Assembly (NCBI GenBank): GCA_020847095.1
Contig: JADLCR010000051.1
Span: 1 to 55,673 of the forward strand
Length of the DNA stretch: 55,673 nucleotides
Origin: Oligoflexia bacterium
GTDB lineage: Bacteria > Bdellovibrionota > Bdellovibrionia > JABDDW01
Direction of reading: 5' to 3'
Positions 9,493-25,018 of this stretch are shown here, in pieces (within the stretch, counting starts at the first letter, position 1; every line of letters starts with the position of its first letter). The notes beneath the pieces were generated by a model. The model was not told the origin of the DNA. It saw only the letters and a program-made list of their open reading frames with translations, and searched no databases. A program made the translations under genes and the position numbers.

Positions 9493-10020
9493 TTACTGGG
9501 CAACTTTCACGCTATGGCGTGACGTGCGATCACCGTCGGTTTTGCCCATACTTTCTGACTTTGAAGGTTCGTATGCCACCTCAATCTGCCGGGCTGTGGC
9601 CACAGTGTCCTTGGGAACTGCGATCTCCAAAACTCCTTCACGGTAGTGCGCCGTGATGTTTTGGGGCCGGGCGTTGGCAGGTAGCCTAAAAACCCTTTGA
9701 AACTTACCCGAGAAGCGTTCTGTGTAGTGTGTCACAGAATCCTCGTGCTTCTTCTCGGTTTTTCTCTCACCCGAGACAACCAGTTGGTTGTCTAAAATCT
9801 CTACTTTTAAATCCTCTCTTCGAAGTCCTGGGATATCGAATTTAAATGCGTATGTCTTTTCGGTTTCTTCGATATCGCAACTGGGGCTCATGAAAGTTCT
9901 TGTCTCAAGGCTTCGGGGCAAGAACTCTCTGAAGAGACGATCTGCTTCGCGAATCGACTCACCCATTTCTGGGAAAAGCGACCAAGCTTTGTTCTCCATC
10001 GGGTTCATCAGCCATTTCAT
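9493..10020 (-). CDS. Hsp20 small heat shock protein
   Basis: This 175-residue protein is an ATP-independent holdase of the alpha-crystallin family. An N-terminal arm of about 45 residues is followed by the alpha-crystallin domain (about 47-143), with F-D-I-P-G-L near 60-65, L-V-V-S-G-E-R and the family hallmark G-V-L-E-I-A-V-P-K at about 129-137. The C-terminal tail is polar and carries no clear I-x-I anchor. The ATG is preceded by TAGGAGGTCATC, a strong ribosome site. A good -24/-12 promoter lies 54-69 bases upstream and a 19-bp palindrome further back, in the gap shared with the PAS kinase gene. This points to control by sigma54 and an NtrC-type activator rather than by sigma32. Confidence 0.95.
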   Translation of the reverse strand: MKWLMNPMENKAWSLFPEMGESIREADRLFREFLPRSLETRTFMSPSCDIEETEKTYAFKFDIPGLRREDLKVEILDNQLVVSGERKTEKKHEDSVTHYTERFSGKFQRVFRLPANARPQNITAHYREGVLEIAVPKDTVATARQIEVAYEPSKSESMGKTDGDRTSRHSVKVAQ

Positions 10021-10073: not shown

Positions 10074-10089
10074 TGCATAGGGGGTGCCA
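10074..10089 (-). promoter_or_regulatory. Sigma54 (-24/-12) promoter of hsp20
   Basis: The minus strand reads TGGCACCCCCTATGCA, matching TGGCACG-N4-TTGCW with exact GG-to-GC spacing and two deviations (C for G at position 7, A for T at position 12). Predicted start of transcription is near 10063, leaving an untranslated leader of about 43 bases with the ribosome site at its end. Confidence 0.72.
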
Positions 10090-10172
10090 GGGGCCAATAT
10101 GCTTTTATTTCGACGACAAGGTGAGCGTGAGTCAAAAAGTCGCAAATTGTAAAATCCGACTGCGACAACTCG

Positions 10173-10221: not shown

Positions 10222-11307
10222 ATGAAAGGCTTAGTGTTTGATCGCGATAACGTCTTTTTTCGATGTGTAGAGGATTCATCGGAAGCCATTATGATTACGG
10301 ACGACCGCGGCGTTTTAAAGTATGTAAACCCGGCCTGGCAGAATATTTATGAGTATTCCTTTGAAGAAGCAATTGGAAAGACGCCGGGAATTTTAAGAAG
10401 TTTCAGGCAAACCGATGACTTTTACAAAGAAATGTGGAAGCGCATTTTGGATCCCAAAATCGGTTCATGGAAGGGCAACATTATGAATCGGAGCAAATCA
10501 GGCCTCGATGTTCCCGTATTTCTAACCATTTCTCCTATTCAAGGAGACGGTGGAGTTGTTGGATACATGGGAACTGCTGTCGATGTGAGTGAAAAGCGCG
10601 ACATGGAGTCAAAAATTTTGCAGCAAGATCGATTGGCGTCGATTGGGCTGTTAGCGTCGGGCATCGCCCATGAGATTGGCACTCCCTTAGGAGTTTTGCG
10701 AGGTCGAGCAGAACTTTTGTCTAAGCAATTGTCTGAAAATGAAAAGACTGTGAACACTATAAATATTATGCTTGTGCAGATCGACCGAATTTCTAAAATT
10801 ATTCAAAATCTTTTAACCCTGAGCCGCGGGCAGCAGTCCAGTGGTCGATGCTTCGTGGCTAAAGTCATTGAAGAAGTTTACAACTTGATGGGGCAAAAGT
10901 TCAAAGAATTCGGAATCGAATTCGTAGCCGATATAGCCCCAGATCTTCGTGTGGCTATGGGCCACAATGAGCTCGAACAAGTGTTGCTAAATTTGGTGAT
11001 TAACTCGGTGTTTGCAATTGACCGCGCTCAAAAAAGCCAATCTTCAAGATCTCATAGTATTGTCATTCAAGTGACTGAACTGGGAACAAGCCATGTCTTA
11101 AGTGTGCGCGATTCAGGTTGCGGAATTTCTCCGAACGACATTAATAAAATCTTTCAGCCTTTTTATACTACAAAGCCGGTAGGTGAGGGCACCGGTCTGG
11201 GGTTAAGTATCAGCTATAGGCTGGTGCGGGAGGCTAAGGGAGATATTCAGGTTGATAGTCAAGTTGGAGCAGGTACCACGTTTCGAATTCAACTGCCAAA
11301 GGCTTAG
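10222..11307 (+). CDS. PAS-domain sensor histidine kinase (NtrB-like)
   Basis: A soluble 361-residue kinase without membrane helices, so the signal is probably cytoplasmic. It contains a PAS domain (about 12-125, including the PAC end V-G-Y-M-G-T-A-V-D-V), a HisKA dimerisation domain with the phosphorylated H150 in GIAHEIGTPL, and an ATPase domain with N box NLVINSV (257-263), G1 box DSGCG (297-301) and G2 box GEGTGLGLS (321-329). All catalytic motifs are intact. The gene converges on the NtrC-type regulator gene with a 4-base overlap of the ends; I infer that the two are cognate partners. PAS ligand (heme, flavin or other) cannot be told; no obvious cofactor-binding Cys pair is present. Confidence 0.93.
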   Translation: MKGLVFDRDNVFFRCVEDSSEAIMITDDRGVLKYVNPAWQNIYEYSFEEAIGKTPGILRSFRQTDDFYKEMWKRILDPKIGSWKGNIMNRSKSGLDVPVFLTISPIQGDGGVVGYMGTAVDVSEKRDMESKILQQDRLASIGLLASGIAHEIGTPLGVLRGRAELLSKQLSENEKTVNTINIMLVQIDRISKIIQNLLTLSRGQQSSGRCFVAKVIEEVYNLMGQKFKEFGIEFVADIAPDLRVAMGHNELEQVLLNLVINSVFAIDRAQKSQSSRSHSIVIQVTELGTSHVLSVRDSGCGISPNDINKIFQPFYTTKPVGEGTGLGLSISYRLVREAKGDIQVDSQVGAGTTFRIQLPKA

Positions 11308-12701
11308 TCAAGTAGGGGTTCGTGCTCTTCGGTGGGTAAACCGTATTGTCTTTCTTTGCGATAAAGGGTACGCCGGTTAATTCCTAAAATTTTCGCAGCC
11401 GCCTCTTTTTTGTGCCCGACTTGAGCCAAAATCAATTTAATGTAGCGCTCTTCAAGCTCATCTAGGGAAGGGTTGTCAGAATAGAGCTGCTGAAAACTTT
11501 CGCGGGCTGACTCAATGGCGCGGCCCATGATGTCATCTTCAGTCAGCATTTCATTAGGACTCATGACCACAGCGCGCTCAATAAGATTTTCAAGTTCGCG
11601 CACATTGCCAGGCCATGGACTTGCCATTAACTTTGCCATGGCTTCGGGAGTGACTCCTTTAGTGTGGGTATTGTTTTGAGCCGAAAATTTTTGAATAAAG
11701 TGATCCACCAAATGGGGAATATCTTGAGGTCGATCGCGCAGTGGTGGAATTTGTATGGGTAAGACATTGAGTCGGTAATAGAGATCTTCTCTAAACTTCT
11801 CTTCTTTTATCATCGAAGCCAAATCTCTGTGAGTGGCACTGACAACGCGCACATCCACTTCTCGCAATTCATTTGAGCCCACGGGTCGAATCGACTTATC
11901 TTGCAAAACTCTTAGGAGTTTTGCCTGTAGGGGTAGGCTGAGATCGCCAATTTCATCGAGAAACAAAGTTCCGCGGTTAGCTTCTTCAAAAAGGCCCTTC
12001 TTATCACCAATCGCACCTGTGAAAGAGCCTTTTACGTGTCCAAAGAGTTCGCTTTCTAAAAGTTGCTCGGGAATGGCGGTGCAATTAATTGGAACAAATG
12101 GTCGGTCTTTCCGAGTTCCAAGTGAGTGAATAGCTCGGGCGACCAATTCCTTTCCTGATCCGCTTTCGCCGCGGATCAAGACATTGGCATTGGCTTGAGA
12201 TACGCGCTTGATCACTTCAAACAGATTTTGCATGGTTGAGCTTTTTCCAATGAGGGATTCAATGCTGAATTCTTTTTTGAGCTCTCGACGAAGCATGGTG
12301 TTGTCGCTCAAAAGTCTAGCGCGCTCAAAGCTTCGGTTAACTTGTAAAAGGAGATCGTCGTTCTTAAATGGCTTAACGATATAGTGGTAAGCGCCCAATC
12401 TCATGGCTTCAATGGCTGTTTCGATTGAGCCAAATGCGGTCATCATGATGCATGTCACCGATGGGAAGGACTCGCGCATTTTTTTAAGAAACATCATTCC
12501 GTCGATGTCTTTCATGCGCAAATCCGTAATGAGAACTGTAGGTAACGGCCCTTTCTTGAATTGAACAAGGGCCTCGGCCACAGAAGTGTAGACCTGAACT
12601 TCGAATCCTTCGCTCACGAGAACGTCTTGAACGAGGCTTCCCATTTCTAAATCGTCATCTACGACGGCAACTCGCTTTGATAGCATCATCTTCTTTGACA
12701 T
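11304..12701 (-). CDS. NtrC-family sigma54 response regulator
   Basis: With the ATG at 12701 the protein has 465 residues: a receiver domain (about 9-125, phosphoacceptor D60 in LITDLRM, K110), a sigma54-activating AAA+ domain (about 148-385) with Walker A GESGSGKE (178-185), the sigma54-contact loop as GSFTGA (225-230, the canonical form is GAFTGA) and Walker B LFLDEIGD, then a Fis-type helix-turn-helix (about 415-455). It should activate -24/-12 promoters when phosphorylated, probably by the convergent PAS kinase. The open frame extends to an ATG at 12776, but that region contains promoter-like signals. If the -24/-12 element at 12704-12719 is used, translation must start at the ATG at 12689 or 12686 instead. 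Confidence 0.93.
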   Translation of the reverse strand: MSKKMMLSKRVAVVDDDLEMGSLVQDVLVSEGFEVQVYTSVAEALVQFKKGPLPTVLITDLRMKDIDGMMFLKKMRESFPSVTCIMMTAFGSIETAIEAMRLGAYHYIVKPFKNDDLLLQVNRSFERARLLSDNTMLRRELKKEFSIESLIGKSSTMQNLFEVIKRVSQANANVLIRGESGSGKELVARAIHSLGTRKDRPFVPINCTAIPEQLLESELFGHVKGSFTGAIGDKKGLFEEANRGTLFLDEIGDLSLPLQAKLLRVLQDKSIRPVGSNELREVDVRVVSATHRDLASMIKEEKFREDLYYRLNVLPIQIPPLRDRPQDIPHLVDHFIQKFSAQNNTHTKGVTPEAMAKLMASPWPGNVRELENLIERAVVMSPNEMLTEDDIMGRAIESARESFQQLYSDNPSLDELEERYIKLILAQVGHKKEAAAKILGINRRTLYRKERQYGLPTEEHEPLLD

Positions 12702-12703
12702 AA

Positions 12704-12719
12704 AGCAGGCCCCGTGCCT
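12704..12719 (-). promoter_or_regulatory. Weak sigma54-like promoter before the NtrC-type gene
   Basis: The minus strand reads AGGCACGGGGCCTGCT, a GGCACG-N4-x-TGC match with correct spacing and two deviations (A1, C12). Predicted start of transcription is near 12693, inside the first codons of the frame beginning at 12701, which would force a start at 12689 or 12686. Confidence 0.4.
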
Positions 12720-12769: not shown

Positions 12770-12784
12770 GGGACATTTTGTCTC
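12770..12784. promoter_or_regulatory. GAGACA-N3-TGTCTC-like operator
   Basis: The plus strand reads GGGACATTTTGTCTC, one mismatch in the arms from the perfect dyad GAGACA-N3-TGTCTC found at 13348-13362. It is centred about 84 bases upstream of the predicted start of transcription of the NtrC-type gene, which suggests autoregulation. Confidence 0.5.
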
Positions 12785-12809: not shown

Positions 12810-13241
12810 TCAAATGGCGATGGGCTCATCCGATTCGAGACACTGGCTCGCGATAAGCGCGTATTTAAGAACGTCCGTCTCGGTTAAAATTCCCACGATT
12901 TGTCCGCCCTTGATCACCGGAAGGGAGCGAAATCGTTTTTCCTGCATTTGTTTTAGAGCATCTTTCATCGGAGTACGGGCCTCAATAACAAGCGGATTAC
13001 GAGTCATAACATCACTGACCGTAATTTTCGGAGCAGGTGTCGTCTGCTTAAATTTCTTTTTAATTTGCTCGGCTAACTCTAGGTCAAGGTGCGAAAGAAG
13101 TCCCACTAATTGACCATCTTCATAAACAAGAAGATGATGGATCACTTCTTGGCGCATCAGATCTTGCGCCGATCGTACGTCTTCTTTTGGAGAAATCTTA
13201 AAAACCGTTTTGCTCATCCAAAATTCTGTGGTGTGCTTCAT
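12810..13241 (-). CDS. Tandem CBS-domain protein
   Basis: A 143-residue stand-alone Bateman module with two CBS repeats (about 8-65 and 75-133). Both carry the typical ending of a hydrophobic-G-x-(L/I)-(S/T)-x-x-D segment (VGLLSHLDLE and VGILTETDVLK). Such modules bind adenine nucleotides and report energy state to partner proteins. A strong AAGGAGG site lies about ten bases before the ATG. A -24/-12 element is placed so that transcription would begin about 19 bases before the start codon. It is transcribed divergently from a second CBS gene, with shared operator-like sequences in between. The partner protein is unknown. Confidence 0.9.
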   Translation of the reverse strand: MKHTTEFWMSKTVFKISPKEDVRSAQDLMRQEVIHHLLVYEDGQLVGLLSHLDLELAEQIKKKFKQTTPAPKITVSDVMTRNPLVIEARTPMKDALKQMQEKRFRSLPVIKGGQIVGILTETDVLKYALIASQCLESDEPIAI

Positions 13242-13269
13242 TTTTTTAGGCCTCCTTGCCTAGAGACGA

Positions 13270-13285
13270 TGCAGACAGCATGCCG
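13270..13285 (-). promoter_or_regulatory. Sigma54-like promoter of the leftward CBS gene
   Basis: The minus strand reads CGGCATGCTGTCTGCA: GG and GC are at the required 12-base offset, with deviations at positions 1, 6 and 12 of the consensus. Predicted start of transcription is near 13260, just upstream of the ribosome site of the gene ending at 12810. Confidence 0.5.
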
Positions 13286-13326
13286 CACCTCACAACGAAT
13301 TATATTCTAACGGAAAAGCAATATTC

Positions 13327-13362
13327 GAGACAAGTGGGTGAATCAAAGAGACATATTGTCTC
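13327..13362. promoter_or_regulatory. Shared operator region: GAGACA half site and full dyad
   Basis: A perfect inverted repeat GAGACATATTGTCTC lies at 13348-13362, and a further GAGACA half site at 13327-13332. They sit between two outward-facing -24/-12 elements, about 73 bases from the rightward and 95 bases from the leftward predicted starts, as expected for an NtrC-family enhancer. Confidence 0.6.
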
Positions 13363-13401
13363 GGCCAATGAATTCATGCATGATTTATTGGTTTTGAACC
13401 G

Positions 13402-13417
13402 CGGCACGGCCCTTGCG
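13402..13417 (+). promoter_or_regulatory. Sigma54 (-24/-12) promoter of the CBS-USP operon
   Basis: CGGCACGGCCCTTGCG contains GGCACG-N4-TTGC, a full match to the core sigma54 consensus with correct spacing. Predicted start of transcription is near 13428, leaving about 29 bases before the ATG at 13457. Confidence 0.78.
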
Positions 13418-13456
13418 ATCTTAAAAGTTGCGATTATCAAAACAAGGAGAAAAAAA

Positions 13457-13867
13457 ATGAGCAAATCCATTCCGCCACTTCAAAAGTTCATGACCGTGCA
13501 GCCACATAGCATCGGAATTGATCAACCTATTCAAAAGGCCCGCGATTTAATGACCGAATACAAGATTAGGCATTTGCCTGTGCTAAAGGGCGGAAAAATT
13601 GTCGGCATCATTACGGATAGAGATATTCGACTCGTTATGGGGTTTGAAGGCGTCGATCCAGAGGAGATGGCGGTTGAAGAAGCTTATACACCGGATCCCT
13701 ATATCGCCAGCCCCAATAGCCGTTTGGATGAAGTAGCGTCTTTGATGGCTGAAAAGAAATATGGCTGCGCCTTAGTTGCGGACAATGGTAAGCTCGTAGG
13801 AATCTTTACGGAGGTCGATGCACTCAGAGCCTTGTCCGAACTTTTGCACGGCAGACTCGGAAAGTAA
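13457..13867 (+). CDS. Tandem CBS-domain protein
   Basis: The ATG at 13457 follows AAGGAGA and gives a 136-residue protein; the frame is open further upstream but that part overlaps the promoter and operator and is not coding-like. Two CBS repeats (about 10-68 and 77-130) are present, each with the typical V-G-I-(I/F)-T-(D/E)-x-D ending (VGIITDRDIR, VGIFTEVDAL). It should bind adenine nucleotides and act as an energy sensor. It is the first gene of a rightward cluster with a c-type heme protein, a beta-CASP nuclease, a UspA protein and another CBS protein, driven by the sigma54 promoter at 13402-13417. Confidence 0.92.
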   Translation: MSKSIPPLQKFMTVQPHSIGIDQPIQKARDLMTEYKIRHLPVLKGGKIVGIITDRDIRLVMGFEGVDPEEMAVEEAYTPDPYIASPNSRLDEVASLMAEKKYGCALVADNGKLVGIFTEVDALRALSELLHGRLGK

Positions 13868-13894
13868 CATAAGTTGATAGTCCTTGGAGGGACC

Positions 13895-15067
13895 ATGACT
13901 AAAGTATCCCTGGTTTTGATTTTCACTGTTTGTCTGGGGTCCGTTTCAACCTTGAAGGCTGAAGATAAGAACAAGTTTCAGCCGACAAAACCCATCATGA
14001 ACGATATTGGCGAAACGGTTTATCGTTTGCTGCCTTATGTGGTTAATGAGGGACGATTCGTGGATCCGAAAAATGATCCTGAACTTCGCGTGCTTTTGAA
14101 GAAGCTATCCGAAAATGTAGAAAAGGCTAAGCATGCCGTCCAAGTTGGTGTGGAGCCTTTTGTTTACTCCCGTGACGTCCTTCGAGGTCATGTGCGTGAA
14201 GTCAATCGCGTGTTCACTCACGGCAATAAGTCCTACGCCCGATGGATGCTTCAGTCTATGTTCAATATTTGTTCAAGCTGCCACACTCAATTAGGAACCG
14301 AGTCTTCATGGGCAAGGGCCTTAGAGCCAAATACCAAATGGGCCAGTGACTTCGATCAAGCGGAGTTCTTTTTTGCTACTCGCGACTACTCAAAGGCATT
14401 TGAACTCTACGATAAAATGATAAGAGGTTATCCCGGAAACAAACTAACGACGCTTCAGCTTGAAACAGCCTTTGAACGACAAGCGGCGTATTTTGTAAAA
14501 GTCAAGAGAACGCCTCAAAACGGTGTCGATTACATGGCTAAACTTCAAACGGCTTCACAAGTTCCCGAGTTTTTGCAAAACAATGCAAAAGCATGGGCGG
14601 GTCTATTTAGAGATTGGTCGAAAGAAAAGCCCGTAGACCTTCGCGCCATGAATGAGGCACAGTTCAGAAAGTATGTCGAAGAACAGTTAGCTCCAGGTCT
14701 TTGGGATAAGCTCATCGATGCATCAGAGCCTCGCGTGATTACTTACTTAAAAGTTTCCACCGTATTGGGAGATTATCTTCAAACCCATCCCAACACAAAA
14801 CTCAAAGCGCAAATCTTTTTATGGCTCGCTCGGTGCGATCGCGCCTTAAATAATAATTTCTTCTATTCTCTTGCGGATATTTATTTAAGAGAGTGCATTA
14901 TGAGGTTTTCCGATTCTCCCGTGGCCGTGAAGTGCTACGAGGAGTACGAAACTTCAACGATGGCCGCTTATTCCGGATCGGCCGGAAGCTTTGTCCCTGA
15001 CGAAGTGAATCGAGAATTGAAGCGATTGAAGGCTCTAGTAGATAAGAAACAACCGAAAAAGGAGTAA
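13895..15067 (+). CDS. Periplasmic CxxCH protein, possible mono-heme cytochrome
   Basis: The ATG at 13895, right behind GGAGGG, opens a 390-residue protein with a clear signal peptide (V-S-L-V-L-I-F-T-V-C-L-G, probable cleavage after L-K-A). One heme c attachment motif, CSSCH, lies near residue 127 in an otherwise helical N-terminal domain. The rest (about 145-380) is helical with repeated Y/F/L/A patterns that recall TPR-like solenoids. It may be a redox sensor or electron carrier; no known family is recognised with confidence. It lies 27 bases after the CBS gene and 3 bases before the nuclease gene, so it belongs to the same stress operon. A TTG at 13874 in the same frame is a weaker start. 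Confidence 0.82.
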   Translation: MTKVSLVLIFTVCLGSVSTLKAEDKNKFQPTKPIMNDIGETVYRLLPYVVNEGRFVDPKNDPELRVLLKKLSENVEKAKHAVQVGVEPFVYSRDVLRGHVREVNRVFTHGNKSYARWMLQSMFNICSSCHTQLGTESSWARALEPNTKWASDFDQAEFFFATRDYSKAFELYDKMIRGYPGNKLTTLQLETAFERQAAYFVKVKRTPQNGVDYMAKLQTASQVPEFLQNNAKAWAGLFRDWSKEKPVDLRAMNEAQFRKYVEEQLAPGLWDKLIDASEPRVITYLKVSTVLGDYLQTHPNTKLKAQIFLWLARCDRALNNNFFYSLADIYLRECIMRFSDSPVAVKCYEEYETSTMAAYSGSAGSFVPDEVNRELKRLKALVDKKQPKKE

Positions 15068-15070
15068 GCG

Positions 15071-16483
15071 ATGAAACTCCGGTTCTTAGGGGCTGCTCAA
15101 ACGGTTACAGGGAGCAAGACTCTTTGTACTCACCGTAACAGGCGGTTCCTGGTGGACTGTGGGTTGTTTCAAGGGGCAAAGCCAAAACGTCTTCTGAATT
15201 GGCAGCCATTTCAAGAAGCCGAAAAGATTGATTTCGTGGTTTTAACCCACGCCCATATTGATCACTCCGGTTATCTCCCAAAGCTCGTCAAAGAGGGGTT
15301 TAAGGGGCCCATTTATTGTTCGCCTGGAACTCGAGATCTTTGCGAAGTATTGCTATTGGATTCGGCGAAACTTCAAGAAGAAGATGCTTCGTTTGCTAAC
15401 CGAACGGGCCATTCGCATCATCGACCGGCGCTGCCGCTTTACACCACTCGTGATGCAGAGAACGCTCTAAGGCTTATTCAGACGGTAAAACAAAATGATT
15501 GGGTTGATTTGAAAGATGGACTTTCACTTAAGCTCACAAGATCGGGACACATCATCGGGTCAAGCTTTGTCCAATTGGGCCTTCAAGGTGATTATCGTTC
15601 GCAGCTTGTAACATTCTCTGGAGACTTGGGTAATGGACGATCGGAAATTATTAAGCCCCCGGTTTCTATTCCAGAAACGGATTTTCTAGTTTTAGAAGGC
15701 ACCTATGGTGATCGATTGCAGCCTCGTGGCAATGTGCGAGATGCTTTGAGACCTTTGATTCACCAAATTTTTGAGAGAAAAGGCGTCATGGTGATTCCGG
15801 CGTTCAGCGTCGGCAGGACCCAAGAAATCCTATATCATTTGCGTGTACTTGAAGAGTCGCGACAAATCCCCACGATTCCAGTCTATCTTGATAGCCCAAT
15901 GGCCAATCACGCGACTCAAATTTTCTTAGATCATCCTGAGGAACATTTACTTCGATTTAATAATGGCGAACTCCATTCGCCTATTTGTCCCAGTTGCTAC
16001 AGCGCAGTGAAGAGCGCCGATGAATCGATGGTCTTATGTATGAAGGATGGTCCGATGATTGTCATTTCTGCAGCCGGAATGTTAACTGGCGGTCGAATTC
16101 TCCATCATCTCAAGCATCGCCTGCCGGATCGAAACAACATGGTTGTATTTGTTGGCTATCAGGCAGAAGAAACGAAGGGAGCATTATTGCAACAGGGCAT
16201 ACCGACGATTCGAATTCACCATGAAGAGGTCGCTGTCGATGCCGAAATAAAAACCATTGAAGCATTGTCTGCCCATGCGGATTATCAAGATATTCTGGAT
16301 TGGCTAAAGGGATTAAAACAGCCTCCTACGAAAATTTTTCTTAATCACGGAGAGCCTGCGGCCCTTGAGACACTCGCTCAAAAAATCAAAGCAACCTATA
16401 ATTTCAATGTTATGATACCTAAGCCAAATGAGGAGATCGATTTGGCGCGGATAAAAAGTGAACTCAATGGGAGGACTGCTTGA
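15071..16483 (+). CDS. Beta-CASP metallo-beta-lactamase RNA nuclease
   Basis: This 470-residue protein has a metallo-beta-lactamase fold with the two-metal motif H60-A-H-I-D64-H65 in LTHAHIDHSG, then a beta-CASP insert with LEGTYGDR (motif A) and a C-terminal RNA-specificity segment (SAHADYQDIL, FLNHGE). The domain order fits the bacterial YSH1/CPSF-like RNA nuclease group; RNA cleavage is inferred from the family. A GGAG ribosome site precedes the ATG. The gene overlaps the UspA gene by four bases and lies in the sigma54-controlled cluster. Equivalent nucleases are often encoded beside Hsp20, UspA and CBS genes in other bacteria, which suggests RNA turnover under low energy. Confidence 0.92.
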   Translation: MKLRFLGAAQTVTGSKTLCTHRNRRFLVDCGLFQGAKPKRLLNWQPFQEAEKIDFVVLTHAHIDHSGYLPKLVKEGFKGPIYCSPGTRDLCEVLLLDSAKLQEEDASFANRTGHSHHRPALPLYTTRDAENALRLIQTVKQNDWVDLKDGLSLKLTRSGHIIGSSFVQLGLQGDYRSQLVTFSGDLGNGRSEIIKPPVSIPETDFLVLEGTYGDRLQPRGNVRDALRPLIHQIFERKGVMVIPAFSVGRTQEILYHLRVLEESRQIPTIPVYLDSPMANHATQIFLDHPEEHLLRFNNGELHSPICPSCYSAVKSADESMVLCMKDGPMIVISAAGMLTGGRILHHLKHRLPDRNNMVVFVGYQAEETKGALLQQGIPTIRIHHEEVAVDAEIKTIEALSAHADYQDILDWLKGLKQPPTKIFLNHGEPAALETLAQKIKATYNFNVMIPKPNEEIDLARIKSELNGRTA

Positions 16484-17274
16484 AGATAAAAGTGGTATTA
16501 GCAGGAGCAGATTTTTCTCCGTACTCACGAACCGTGGTTAAGCAAGCTAAGCGCTTGGCTCAGAAATTTAATGCGCGACTTGTAGTTAGTCATTGTGTCG
16601 TTTTGCCGACAGCGGTTCCGGGGACTAAAAAGAGAGCATTTCTAGACGCTATTGAAAAGCGACTGAGAAGTGTTTATTCGCTAGGTCGAACAGTAAAAGT
16701 GAGAATTGCCTTTGGAGTTCCCGATCTGGTTTTGCTAACTCATGGAGCAAACCAAAAAACCACGTTGACGGTGGTGGGGCACCGAGGGTTGACAGGATTG
16801 AAGGGTGCATTTTTGGGAAGTACCGCGGAGCGGTTAGCACTCAATGCTCGAGGGCCTGTGTGGATTCATCGAGGACCGGGTGTTGTGAGTTTGAAATCGG
16901 CTTTGGTTCCGACGGATCTTCATCGGTCTACGGAAGCGCTACTTAAAAGTATTAAGAGTCTCACAGCTAAAAAGGTACTCATGCATGTGCATGAAAGACC
17001 CACCCCGGTTTTGTATTATGACTCCTGGGTGGCTCTCTATCACATGCACGAAGAGCGGGCCAAAAGGAGGCTCAATCAAATTCGATCCAAATTTAAGAAT
17101 GTATCGCTGATTGAAGTTAGGGGATCGGCACCGGAGCTGATCTTAAATCATGCAAGAAAATACGATGTGACGGTGATGCACCCTCGAAAGCATCAAGAGT
17201 TGTTTCGAGGATTCGGAAAGGTTACGGCTCGAGTTCTTCGAAATTCTTCTAAACCAGTGCTTGTGATGCACTAG
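16480..17274 (+). CDS. Tandem UspA universal stress protein
   Basis: The start is TTG at 16480, supported by GGGAGG about ten bases before it and by a 4-base overlap with the stop of the nuclease gene. The 264-residue protein carries two UspA units (about 1-130 and 140-264). The first keeps a nucleotide-binding pattern G-x2-G-x9-G-S (GHRGLTG...LGST); the second is degenerate at this place (HPRKHQELFRGFG), so probably only the first half binds ATP. Unit boundaries fit the alpha/beta Rossmann-like fold. It is likely produced under stress together with the CBS proteins and the nuclease. Confidence 0.88.
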   Translation: MKIKVVLAGADFSPYSRTVVKQAKRLAQKFNARLVVSHCVVLPTAVPGTKKRAFLDAIEKRLRSVYSLGRTVKVRIAFGVPDLVLLTHGANQKTTLTVVGHRGLTGLKGAFLGSTAERLALNARGPVWIHRGPGVVSLKSALVPTDLHRSTEALLKSIKSLTAKKVLMHVHERPTPVLYYDSWVALYHMHEERAKRRLNQIRSKFKNVSLIEVRGSAPELILNHARKYDVTVMHPRKHQELFRGFGKVTARVLRNSSKPVLVMH

Positions 17275-17288
17275 AAACGGAGAGGCCC

Positions 17289-17741
17289 ATGTTTGTCTCA
17301 GATATTGGAGTAAAACCCGTTGTGACAGTCGACAAAAGCGCCACTCTAGATGAAGTGGCAACCAAGATGCGCACAAGTCATGTGGGATGTGTCGTCGTGA
17401 CCGAAGTCACGAATAATAAAAAGGAAAAGCCCTTGGGTATTATTACTGATAGGGACTTAGTTGTAAGTGCAGTGGGGCTCAAAGTGGAGCCGGAACGCCT
17501 TTGCGCTCAAGACATTATGGCGACTGATCTCTACACGGTGAACCAGGATTCGGGTCTGGCCGCCGCCATCAGGGTGATGGCCAGTCACGCTATACGCCGA
17601 GTGCCGGTTGTCGATAAGTCGGGACTTCTGGTTGGAATTGTGACCAGCGACGACGTCTTGGCTTACTTGACAACGGCTTTGGGAGCGCTATCCAGGGTTT
17701 CGTCAAGCCAACGGTCCTTTGAAGGTGAAGTGCGAAACTAA
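17289..17741 (+). CDS. Tandem CBS-domain protein, last gene of the stress cluster
   Basis: A 150-residue Bateman module with two CBS repeats (about 1-65 and 75-135). The segments LGIITDRDLV and VGIVTSDDVL are the usual nucleotide-binding ends. An AACGGAGAGG ribosome site precedes the ATG and it starts 14 bases after the UspA gene, so it belongs to the same transcript. The third CBS protein of the cluster differs from the other two in the insert between its first strands (a Lys/Asn-rich loop near residues 37-46). Partner proteins are unknown. Confidence 0.9.
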   Translation: MFVSDIGVKPVVTVDKSATLDEVATKMRTSHVGCVVVTEVTNNKKEKPLGIITDRDLVVSAVGLKVEPERLCAQDIMATDLYTVNQDSGLAAAIRVMASHAIRRVPVVDKSGLLVGIVTSDDVLAYLTTALGALSRVSSSQRSFEGEVRN

Positions 17742-22593: not shown

Positions 22594-24315
22594 TTAGCTA
22601 TTTATTTTTCGAGAAGCAGTAATGCATCTCTGGCACCTTTGAGCTCTCATAATATTATAGACTGAGGTGGTTCTAGTTTTTTTGCAACCCAAACACTGTA
22701 CCGTCAGGGAAGTCACTCCATCTGCTTTTAATAACTTGTAATTATACGGTTTAATACGTCTCCTAATTTCAGATTCATTAATTTTCTTTTCTTTCGACTG
22801 CCGTACTCTCCAACAGCTTGGACAGCCATGCCCAGCAGATACACTCATTATGGATTTCATATGACTCTTATCACAAATAAGACAGCGAAATGGAAGTGGC
22901 GTTGAATTATTTTTAGCAAACTTGAACATTGGCTTAAGCTTTTGACGCATACTTCTTATTTTAATTTCAGACATTGTTAGTCGGGACCTATCGCCTGTAG
23001 CCTTTGCTTGACAAGTTTTACAGTTTTTTGCAATTGTCATCTTTTCGGCAGATGCTTGATATACTGACCCGCAGTCTAAACATTTTATTTTTAACTTACG
23101 CTTGCTGTTTATTATTTTTCTCGAAAGTACAATACAATTCCACTTTTCTGCACGTGACTTTACTTCATTAATATTCAAAGGTAGGTTTCCAGCACAACGA
23201 GGACATCCAAAAGCCGATTTTCGAAGAGACTGGGGCGGAACACTCCAGACGTAGTTGCAAACCATACACTCATGCCTCAGTGGGTATTTTTCACCCAAAT
23301 AAACATGATCGAGTACCAGAATGCCCTTTCCGGCAACATCCCAAAAGTATGATTCCAATTTGTTAGGGCTGTAGATCGCATTTAAATTTAGTGATTTATA
23401 TTTTACTAATGGCTTCAAACCAAAGGACACAAGTTTTTTTATAAGGAAGCCTTCAACTTTATCTATTGGTAAATCCTTCCCGACTGAAGAGACTTCAATC
23501 AGATTTATACCATGTTGTGAGCATATACGCCTTCTAAGAGCGTCTGCGCTTTGTCGCTTTTTGAGGTGCACTTTATTTTTCGTAAATAGATTACCATGTT
23601 TGAAATGTTGTTCACCATGATGCTCAAATGCCAAGCCTAACTCATTACAATAGCCATCAAGTTCAAGCCCACTAAGCCACTTTGGGCGTTGTTTGGGGAA
23701 CCTTTTTCCTAGCATTTCCTCTAATAATGTACGACAGACTTCCTCTCCAACAAAACTCATACATCGAGGACATTTAGTACCTGGTGAGCTAAACTTGTTA
23801 TATGACATTGTAAACCCATGTCCGTTTGGGCAAATAAATGACAGTTTAGTTACAGCTTTTATATAAGATTTTGAGACACAAACAAATCCACGGGATTTAG
23901 CAAATAATTTTACATCAGCTATTGTTCTACGTCTGCCAGCGCAATGCGGACATTTTCTACCCTTAAGAGCATTATAGATTGAATTGGTAAATTTATAGTT
24001 ACATTTAATGCATTGAAGTTGCAGCCTCTTTCGTTTCCCACTATATATCTTTGAAACGAGTATAAAATTATTTTTCTTACCTATCTGGGCTACTTTATCT
24101 AGAACATCATAAATTCTTGTTCCTGAGCAATAAAAGCACCATGCCCCAGCTTTTAATTGCGACGGAAGTCTTAAAAAATTATGTTTTTTGTGGCATCGTA
24201 TTTTAATTGGTATTTGATTGCCCTTATAGGGTGATAATTGTTGACCATGCTTCTTTGAAATTATTAAAGCCGTTGCCTTTTGTGAGGTTAAAAACTGTTC
24301 TTCGGATCGTCCCAT
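22594..24315 (-). CDS. Seven-zinc-ribbon protein with Vsr/DUF559-like nuclease domain
   Basis: A 573-residue AT-rich gene. Seven zinc-ribbon-like units are visible by their paired Cys: 41/60-63, 102-105/122-125, 162-166/182-185, 350-353/371-374, 412-415/432-435, 478-481/498-501 and 541-544/561-564. Between the third and fourth lies a nuclease-like domain (about 189-276) with GEE at 190-192, L-E-L-D220-G-Y, A-F-E231-H-H-G-E235-Q-H and C-S-Q-H-G-I-N-L-I-E-V, the pattern of the PD-(D/E)XK relatives Vsr and DUF559. D220 and E231 are the best catalytic candidates. I infer a DNA endonuclease with ribbons for target recognition. Homing, defence or element mobility are possible roles; none is shown by sequence. 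Confidence 0.82.
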   Translation of the reverse strand: MGRSEEQFLTSQKATALIISKKHGQQLSPYKGNQIPIKIRCHKKHNFLRLPSQLKAGAWCFYCSGTRIYDVLDKVAQIGKKNNFILVSKIYSGKRKRLQLQCIKCNYKFTNSIYNALKGRKCPHCAGRRRTIADVKLFAKSRGFVCVSKSYIKAVTKLSFICPNGHGFTMSYNKFSSPGTKCPRCMSFVGEEVCRTLLEEMLGKRFPKQRPKWLSGLELDGYCNELGLAFEHHGEQHFKHGNLFTKNKVHLKKRQSADALRRRICSQHGINLIEVSSVGKDLPIDKVEGFLIKKLVSFGLKPLVKYKSLNLNAIYSPNKLESYFWDVAGKGILVLDHVYLGEKYPLRHECMVCNYVWSVPPQSLRKSAFGCPRCAGNLPLNINEVKSRAEKWNCIVLSRKIINSKRKLKIKCLDCGSVYQASAEKMTIAKNCKTCQAKATGDRSRLTMSEIKIRSMRQKLKPMFKFAKNNSTPLPFRCLICDKSHMKSIMSVSAGHGCPSCWRVRQSKEKKINESEIRRRIKPYNYKLLKADGVTSLTVQCLGCKKTRTTSVYNIMRAQRCQRCITASRKINS

Positions 24316-24369: not shown

Positions 24370-24675
24370 TTAACTCGCCAACTTAAATGTAACCTTCCCA
24401 CCAGCCGCTGCAATTACTTTCAAAAAGAGATCACTAGAAATTCCAGCAAGGGCACCATTTTTAATTGCCGAAACTTTGGATCGGGCGATACCTGAGAGTT
24501 TAACGATTTCATTAACGGTTAAGCCAGAGGCAGCGATAACTTTCTCAGCGAAAGCTGATAATTGAGCCTTGTATTCCATGAGAGCTATATCGGCAGGGGA
24601 GTCGATACCGAGAGCTTTGGCGAGTTCAGTGGGGTTTTTAGCAGTAACGTAATTCTTTTTGCTTTTAGTCTTCAT
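24370..24675 (-). CDS. XRE-type antitoxin of a Gp49/HigB pair
   Basis: The 101-residue protein has a basic N-terminus and a helix-turn-helix region at about 50-85 (LTVNEIVKLSG followed by SKVSAIKNGA), the XRE pattern seen in antitoxins paired with Gp49-like toxins. It should neutralise the toxin and repress the shared promoter. Its start overlaps the toxin stop by 11 bases, the toxin being encoded first, as is usual in higBA-type loci. It sits in the tRNA-fMet island. Confidence 0.87.
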   Translation of the reverse strand: MKTKSKKNYVTAKNPTELAKALGIDSPADIALMEYKAQLSAFAEKVIAASGLTVNEIVKLSGIARSKVSAIKNGALAGISSDLFLKVIAAAGGKVTFKLAS

Positions 24676-25018
24676 TTTTTAGCTCCTCTAAAAAGGTGTT
24701 TAGTCTTTGGCGGCCAGTCTCTATTTCTTGTTTCGGGGTCTTTCTGGATTTTTTCTTGAACGAGTGAAACACTAAAATTCCATGTTTCACTTTGATCAAA
24801 TAAAAAGCCCTGTAAATCCCACTTGCATCCTTAAGCCTGATTTCAAAAACTCCTGGGGCTACGGTACTCATCAATAGTGTATCCGGGTAACCTACGGGGC
24901 TTCCTTTTTGAAGCTTTGTAAGAATCGAACCCAGATCCTTCTTAACTTCTAAAGGCCAACGCTGAATTTCGCTGCGGGCTGGTTCATATATGAGTACTTC
25001 AAGCCAGTTCTTGCTCAT
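24665..25018 (-). CDS. Gp49/HigB-like toxin (RelE superfamily)
   Basis: The 117-residue protein matches the phage-derived Gp49-like family: G-V-F-E-I-R-L-K-D at about 56-64, G-I-Y-R-A-F-Y near 67-73, then a beta strand, F-H-S-F-K-K-K-S-R-K-T-P near 85-96 and E-I-E-T-G-R-Q-R-L. Members are mostly RelE-fold mRNA interferases that act on translating ribosomes; the basic residues needed are present. It is first in a two-gene operon with the antitoxin. It likely helps retain the island, since the island has no visible integrase. Confidence 0.87.
   Translation of the reverse strand: MSKNWLEVLIYEPARSEIQRWPLEVKKDLGSILTKLQKGSPVGYPDTLLMSTVAPGVFEIRLKDASGIYRAFYLIKVKHGILVFHSFKKKSRKTPKQEIETGRQRLNTFLEELKNED

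Follow-up and report, generated by a model that had tools for sequence, protein, structure and literature searches.

A predicted palindromic enhancer shared by divergent sigma54 promoters, and a candidate NtrC-type regulon, in an Oligoflexia bacterium

We analysed a 55,673-nucleotide stretch of DNA from an Oligoflexia bacterium (hereafter the window, meaning the stretch at its full length) in which two genes for CBS-domain proteins are transcribed away from each other. The region between them is best read, from its sequence and from that of related loci, as a divergent pair of sigma54 promoters driven from one shared enhancer by an NtrC-type response regulator (RR) encoded nearby, and we put the probability of this reading at roughly 0.8. 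The regulator and its candidate site recur together in relatives, and they probably define a conserved regulon for low-oxygen or energy stress run by the neighbouring two-component regulator.

The genes for the two-CBS-domain proteins CBS_A (12810–13241, minus strand) and CBS_B (13457–13867, plus strand), both identified by domain search, lie back to back and are separated by a gap of 215 bp (13242–13456). Within this gap, the first-pass annotation had described two outward-facing −24/−12 elements flanking a perfect GAGACA-N3-TGTCTC dyad and a half site, and each of these features was found. The dyad, GAGACATATTGTCTC, occupies 13348–13362 (no strand assigned) and is the predicted RR site and shared enhancer. 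The half site is the intact left half, GAGACA at 13327–13332, of a degenerate second site at 13327–13341 (also unstranded), which was recognized from its sequence and from the site spacing in relatives. It is offset from the perfect dyad by exactly 21 bp in the upstream direction, which corresponds to two helical turns. On the CBS_B side, the −24/−12 element CGGCACGGCCCTTGCG (13402–13417, plus strand) is strong, with GGCACG-N4-TTGC intact; transcription is predicted to start at ∼13428 and is followed by AAGGAG and the ATG at 13457. On the CBS_A side, the weaker element CGGCATGCTGTCTGCA (13285–13270, minus strand) keeps GG-N10-GC with two core mismatches, and a predicted start at ∼13259 is followed by GGAGG and the ATG at 13241. 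Judged against GG-N10-GC in a TGGCACG-N4-TTGCW-like context, the plus-strand sigma54 element is strong and the minus-strand one weak, though correctly spaced.

The minus-strand element is the weakest part of the observation. It scored 11.1 compared with 14.7 for the plus-strand element and, when 13242–13456 was subjected to 2000 dinucleotide shuffles, an equal or better score was reached in 1.8% of cases for the minus strand, in 0.05% for the plus strand and in 0 of the 2000 for both together. Consensus scans for the dyad and for −24/−12 elements in the window alone did not rise above chance; they were therefore not used as proof, and the significance comes from the combination of elements and from their conservation. 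The low score and the 1.8% match rate would also suit an arrangement where the dyad serves only the promoter of the CBS_B operon, with CBS_A transcribed from a sigma70-type promoter and the minus-strand element a chance GG-N10-GC. There is a sigma70-like site with 9/12 matches at 13333–13304 on the minus strand. However, sigma70-like matches occurred at background density (7 found against 5.6 expected), and the minus-strand element is sensibly spaced from its Shine–Dalgarno sequence and ATG. Moreover, the CBS_A orthologue in genome G002 has TGGCACGTGATGCGCA 29–30 bp before the ATG, the same distance as in the window, with GAGACATCTTGACGT located ∼45 bp upstream. We consider this one-sided arrangement unlikely, and retain the divergent pair served by one dyad.

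Downstream of the strong plus-strand element, CBS_B is the first of five closely spaced genes on that strand. It is followed by ORF397 (13874–15067; probable ATG at 13895), whose product carries a CxxCH (haem-c-like) motif, appears to be exported and matches no Pfam family, and then by genes that domain searches identified as encoding a metallo-beta-lactamase/beta-CASP/RMMBL RNase-like protein (15071–16483), a double universal stress protein (USP; 16480–17274) and a further two-CBS-domain protein, CBS_C (17289–17741), the probable end of the operon. From its motif and the recurrence of distant homologues behind GACA-N3-TGTC sites, ORF397 may be a c-type cytochrome-like component of the regulon. 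The first-pass annotation had raised sigma54 control of the whole operon; the close spacing of the genes from CBS_B to CBS_C (13457–17741) is the sole ground for extending it that far.

The candidate regulator is a protein of 465 amino acids encoded at 11304–12701 on the minus strand. It has the composition of an NtrC-type RR, with a receiver domain carrying D60, an AAA+ domain with the Walker sequence GESGSGKE and the sigma54-contact loop GSFTGA, and a Fis-type helix–turn–helix (HTH) containing INRRTLYRKE. The home genome (2.7 Mb) encodes one rpoN (PF04552, E 9.9e-66). Convergent with the RR gene is a gene for a histidine kinase of 361 amino acids with PAS-HisKA-HATPase architecture by domain search (10222–11307, plus strand). 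Its PAS domain is nearest to the sensor domains of MmoS and NifL and then to that of FixL. The PAS domains of MmoS and NifL bind FAD and that of FixL binds haem, a likeness that makes a redox or oxygen input to the window kinase plausible. Beyond the kinase lies a gene for an HSP20 small heat-shock protein (9493–10020, minus strand), which is preceded by a −24/−12 element detected by sequence scan, TGGCACCCCCTATGCA (10074–10089, minus strand), and by a degenerate site, GAGTCAAAAAGTCGC (10129–10143), centred 47 bp upstream of that element.

The RR gene has sites of its own. A near-identical dyad had been noted before it, and this corresponds to GAGACAAAATGTCCC at 12784–12770 on the minus strand, a near copy of the perfect dyad that is likewise accompanied by a half site, GAGACG, 21 bp upstream. 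A −24/−12-like element, AGGCACGGGGCCTGCT, follows at 12719–12704 (minus strand). The start predicted from it, ∼12693, falls just after the annotated ATG at 12701, the next ATG being at 12689. Either the transcript is nearly leaderless and RR translation starts at 12689, or transcription continues into the gene from the CBS_A promoter; because the predicted start lies after the annotated ATG, what looks like autoregulation could be such read-through, and both routes would still amount to self-activation of the RR. The RR promoter of G002 has the same GACAAAATGTCCC plus TGGCATACACCATGCT.

To scan the home genome with the GAGACA-N3-TGTCTC model had been proposed in the first-pass annotation; all genome-wide scans were run as pattern searches with reversed controls. 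The perfect dyad occurred only twice in the 2.7 Mb, in the window and on contig C62. The C62 dyad is upstream of another CBS gene, with a strong TGGCACTCCCATTGCT between the dyad and the start. Directly 3′ of that CBS gene, and probably co-transcribed with it, is a gene for a small hydrophobic protein that by eye is DUF2892-like (L006, 5583–5777). Allowing one mismatch added the promoters of the RR gene and of ccoNO, together with a site that appears to be due to chance; a dyad match on C107 was discounted. On contig C9, a cluster of sites with TGGCCCCTCAACTGCA precedes ccoNO-ccoP-ccoG, which encodes a cbb3 oxidase. The ccoN and ccoO genes are fused here in a single reading frame of 727 amino acids with COX1 and FixO domains (L007, 5019–7202). 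The HSP20 and ccoNO dyads are degenerate in the home genome, and membership of the regulon is likely for both. A small CBS gene on C96 had no convincing upstream site.

When the core dyad was required to be followed within 39–69 bp by GGCAY-N6-TGC, three such composites were found in the home genome, compared with ∼0.08 expected and 0 in the reversed control. All three are in the window, at the RR, CBS_A and CBS_B promoters. This count is partly circular, as the spacing limits were set after inspection of the window, and the independent weight therefore lies in the relatives.

A search of 148 genomes for the RR revealed a clade A, with 56–72% identity to the window protein, and a sister clade B, with 49–55% identity. 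Both were recovered in the tree (support of 100/100 for A, 100/98 for B and 98/90 for A and B together), and the two clades share the recognition helix (N/S)RRTLYRKE. Their loci repeatedly carry genes for a PAS kinase, a REC-HisKA-HATPase kinase, CBS_B-like proteins, USP, RNase and ORF397-like proteins, and ccoI-ccoNO-ccoP-ccoG is also present at RR-homologue loci, mainly in clade B. The CBS_B-like genes adjoin the RR gene in most relatives and the REC-HisKA-HATPase kinase gene is beside it in several; the best match to this kinase in the home genome is the PAS kinase of the window, over the kinase core only.

To rank candidate sites, every gapped palindrome with 4-bp arms was counted in the intergenic DNA of 40 RR-homologue loci, with the window excluded. 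The top palindrome was GACA-N3-TGTC, which occurred 38 times where the frequency in coding DNA predicts 1.8; the runner-up had 18 against 2.6. In clade A, there were 35 GACA-N3-TGTC sites distributed over 14 of 17 loci, the next best palindrome reaching 13. Clade B had only 8, spread over 6 of its 22 loci, and its regulators may accordingly recognize a dyad that differs slightly. At one clade-B locus (L111, genome G034), the dyad directly follows the 3′ end of the regulator gene; 48 bp further on come TGGCACCGTCCTTGCT and a gene for an exported protein of 130 amino acids. Dyad matches at L032, L033, L034 and L035 were discounted as intragenic or unconnected. Among 53 pairs of neighbouring sites, the spacing peaked at 20–22 bp (14 pairs) and 30–32 bp (15 pairs), with a probability of ∼1e-14 for bins that were chosen after inspection. 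These peaks would correspond to two or three helical turns, as expected of activators bound on one face of the helix. With the same proviso about the bins, the targets are preceded by palindromic sites in helical phase, as for NtrC-type activators.

Composites of a dyad and a −24/−12 element were also sought in 144 genomes of the class. The strict pattern gave 18 hits and a looser one 36, with 0 in the reversed controls for either. The genes behind them include nine for CBS proteins (two of which are those of the window), two for HSP20 (L110 and L119), one for a USP, two for the RR (window and G002), two for kinases, two for ORF397-type CxxCH proteins (L118 and L145) and one for a cytochrome-like protein, along with several for exported proteins of no known role. 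With the window excluded, the enrichment of CBS genes was ∼3e-11 if roughly 10 in every 2800 genes are taken as background, a figure that is indicative because the genomes are related. For nearly half of the composite sites in the class, the gene that follows has no obvious connection, and a few of the sites are probably due to chance. At L147 and L148, from two genomes, the genes behind composite sites appear by eye to be putative lysine-decarboxylase/LOG-family genes. Distant homologues of ORF397 recur behind GACA-N3-TGTC sites at L118, L145 and L071. At L070 (genome G038) and L028 (genome G050), a perfect dyad likewise separates two divergently transcribed genes whose products are small exported proteins, one of them His/Gly-rich; in G038 there is CGGCACTGTGCTTGCA on one side of the dyad, and this may be another divergent pair with a shared enhancer.

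The distribution of these composites bears on which protein acts at the dyad. The home genome encodes ∼11 full-length or near-full-length sigma54 activators, and the dyad is weaker around clade-B regulators, so that it could be the operator of another regulator, either a repressor or another of these activators, with the NtrC-type neighbour being coincidental. Against this, composites were found in 12 of 18 genomes with a clade-A RR but in only 12 of 126 without one (p 2.8e-7, or 1.1e-6 without the home genome, values that are indicative since the genomes are related), and 23 of the 36 composite sites fall in clade-A genomes. In addition, the dyads cluster at the regulator's own locus in clade A, in the 14 of 17 loci given above, and the recognition helix is common to both clades. 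We regard control by a different regulator as distinctly improbable. Control of both CBS genes and of the operon by the NtrC-type neighbour, offered in the first-pass annotation as an inference, gains support at the sequence level from the ranking of the motif, its co-occurrence with clade A and the classes of target gene.

Among described systems, NmpRSTU of Myxococcus xanthus comes closest; it is hypoxia-linked and sigma54-dependent (PMC11841059). Its NtrC-like regulator NmpR binds tandem GCGCA-N5-TGCGC sites, which are 15-bp dyads, and targets a CBS gene, a USP gene, a P-type ATPase and cbb3 operon and the genes of its own system (PMC11841059). The 'energy stress' label given to the window operon fits both its gene content and this precedent (PMC11841059). 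By walking 400 kb of a Myxococcus-like genome, we found an nmp-type locus (L211) with a CBS gene preceded by a pair of GCGCA-type sites spaced by 29 bp and a −24/−12 element, together with genes for an NmpR-like RR, a REC-HisKA kinase and a protoglobin kinase, the last with two perfect GCGCA-N5-TGCGC sites. The best RR matches, L196–L201, were ruled out as the Myxococcus nmpR, as they have no CBS or protoglobin neighbours.

The two systems have in common an NtrC-like RR, sigma54 promoters, tandem 15-bp dyads, self-regulation and CBS, USP and cbb3 oxidase targets (the cbb3 site being degenerate in the home genome), and in relatives of the window system the REC-HisKA hybrid kinase encoded next to the RR gene recalls NmpS. 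These likenesses would be explained if the window RR were this group's NmpR orthologue and the system a true Nmp system. However, Myxococcus NmpR, which has a long branch in the tree, falls outside the clade formed by A, B and another myxococcal group, and the window RR is 43% identical to NmpR, less than to another Myxococcus paralogue (46%). The recognition helix of NmpR, ISVRKIQYRLKEYG (VRKIQYRLK), differs from the (N/S)RRTLYRKE of clades A and B, and its GCGCA-N5-TGCGC site differs from the GACA-N3-TGTC-based site, GAGACA-N3-TGTCTC in the window. The kinase is of the PAS-HisKA-HATPase type rather than a protoglobin kinase such as NmpU. Furthermore, unlike in NmpRSTU, the window dyad would serve two divergent promoters, and HSP20 and an RNase-like gene would be included. 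Orthology to NmpR is very improbable: the window system works like Nmp without being a member of it, and its regulon resembles the Myxococcus one without descent from it.

NtrC and ZraR systems have activators with receiver, AAA+ and Fis HTH domains, upstream palindromic sites and divergent sigma54 promoters. In these general features they are like the window system, whereas their targets (nitrogen; zinc and envelope stress) and their sites are different. The low-oxygen regulons of DosR, FNR/ANR and FixLJ-FixK have HSP20, USP, CBS and cbb3 oxidase targets, as here, but these regulators activate sigma70-type promoters rather than being sigma54 enhancer-binding proteins, a comparison that PMC11841059 discusses in part.

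The minus-strand form of the dyad was flagged as terminator-like (a 6-bp stem followed by TTTGATTC). A non-regulatory function as a bidirectional terminator or hairpin can practically be dismissed, as the dyad sits between divergent gene starts, where there is no transcript to end, and is repeatedly found upstream of −24/−12 elements with helical phasing.

For the preferred reading, activation of both promoters by the NtrC-type RR from the shared dyad, we envisage the following sequence of events. The histidine kinase at 10222–11307, or a relay feeding it, would phosphorylate the RR, whose dimers would occupy GAGACA-N3-TGTCTC and the adjacent weaker, helically phased site and then oligomerize. 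The bound RR would loop to sigma54 polymerase at the −24/−12 elements on both sides, switching on CBS_A in one direction and the operon for CBS_B, the CxxCH protein, the RNase, USP and CBS_C in the other. Other genes probably activated by this RR are its own, HSP20 and the C62 CBS gene, and perhaps those of the C9 cbb3 oxidase operon. Such a regulon would be likely to help the cell to cope with a fall in oxygen, redox state or energy.

Control of low-oxygen programmes is generally attributed to FNR, FixLJ or DosR. To our knowledge, and as far as the literature searched tells, cbb3 oxidase, USP and CBS genes have been shown to be under a sigma54 activator only in Myxococcus (2025); searches for Bdellovibrio with sigma54 or cbb3 gave nothing relevant. 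That the same programme is found in another class, with a non-orthologous activator and a different DNA site, points to a wider distribution of sigma54 control over micro-oxic respiration and energy stress, possibly by convergence. We lean towards a class-wide, hitherto undescribed sigma54 regulon for oxygen or redox and energy limitation, with a two-component regulator clade non-orthologous to NmpR, its own GACA-N3-TGTC dyad and a multi-kinase relay in relatives, so that CBS, USP and cbb3 genes would have come under sigma54 separately in two bacterial groups. Its motif, targets and regulator are specific enough for immediate testing, and the regulon should interest those who work on sigma54 control and micro-oxic respiration.

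Two further features were noted elsewhere in the window. A gene at 22594–24315 encodes a protein with a DUF4379 treble-clef zinc-finger domain and, at 24370–25018, a Gp49/RelE-like toxin-family gene has a small ORF beside it, a possible toxin–antitoxin pair.
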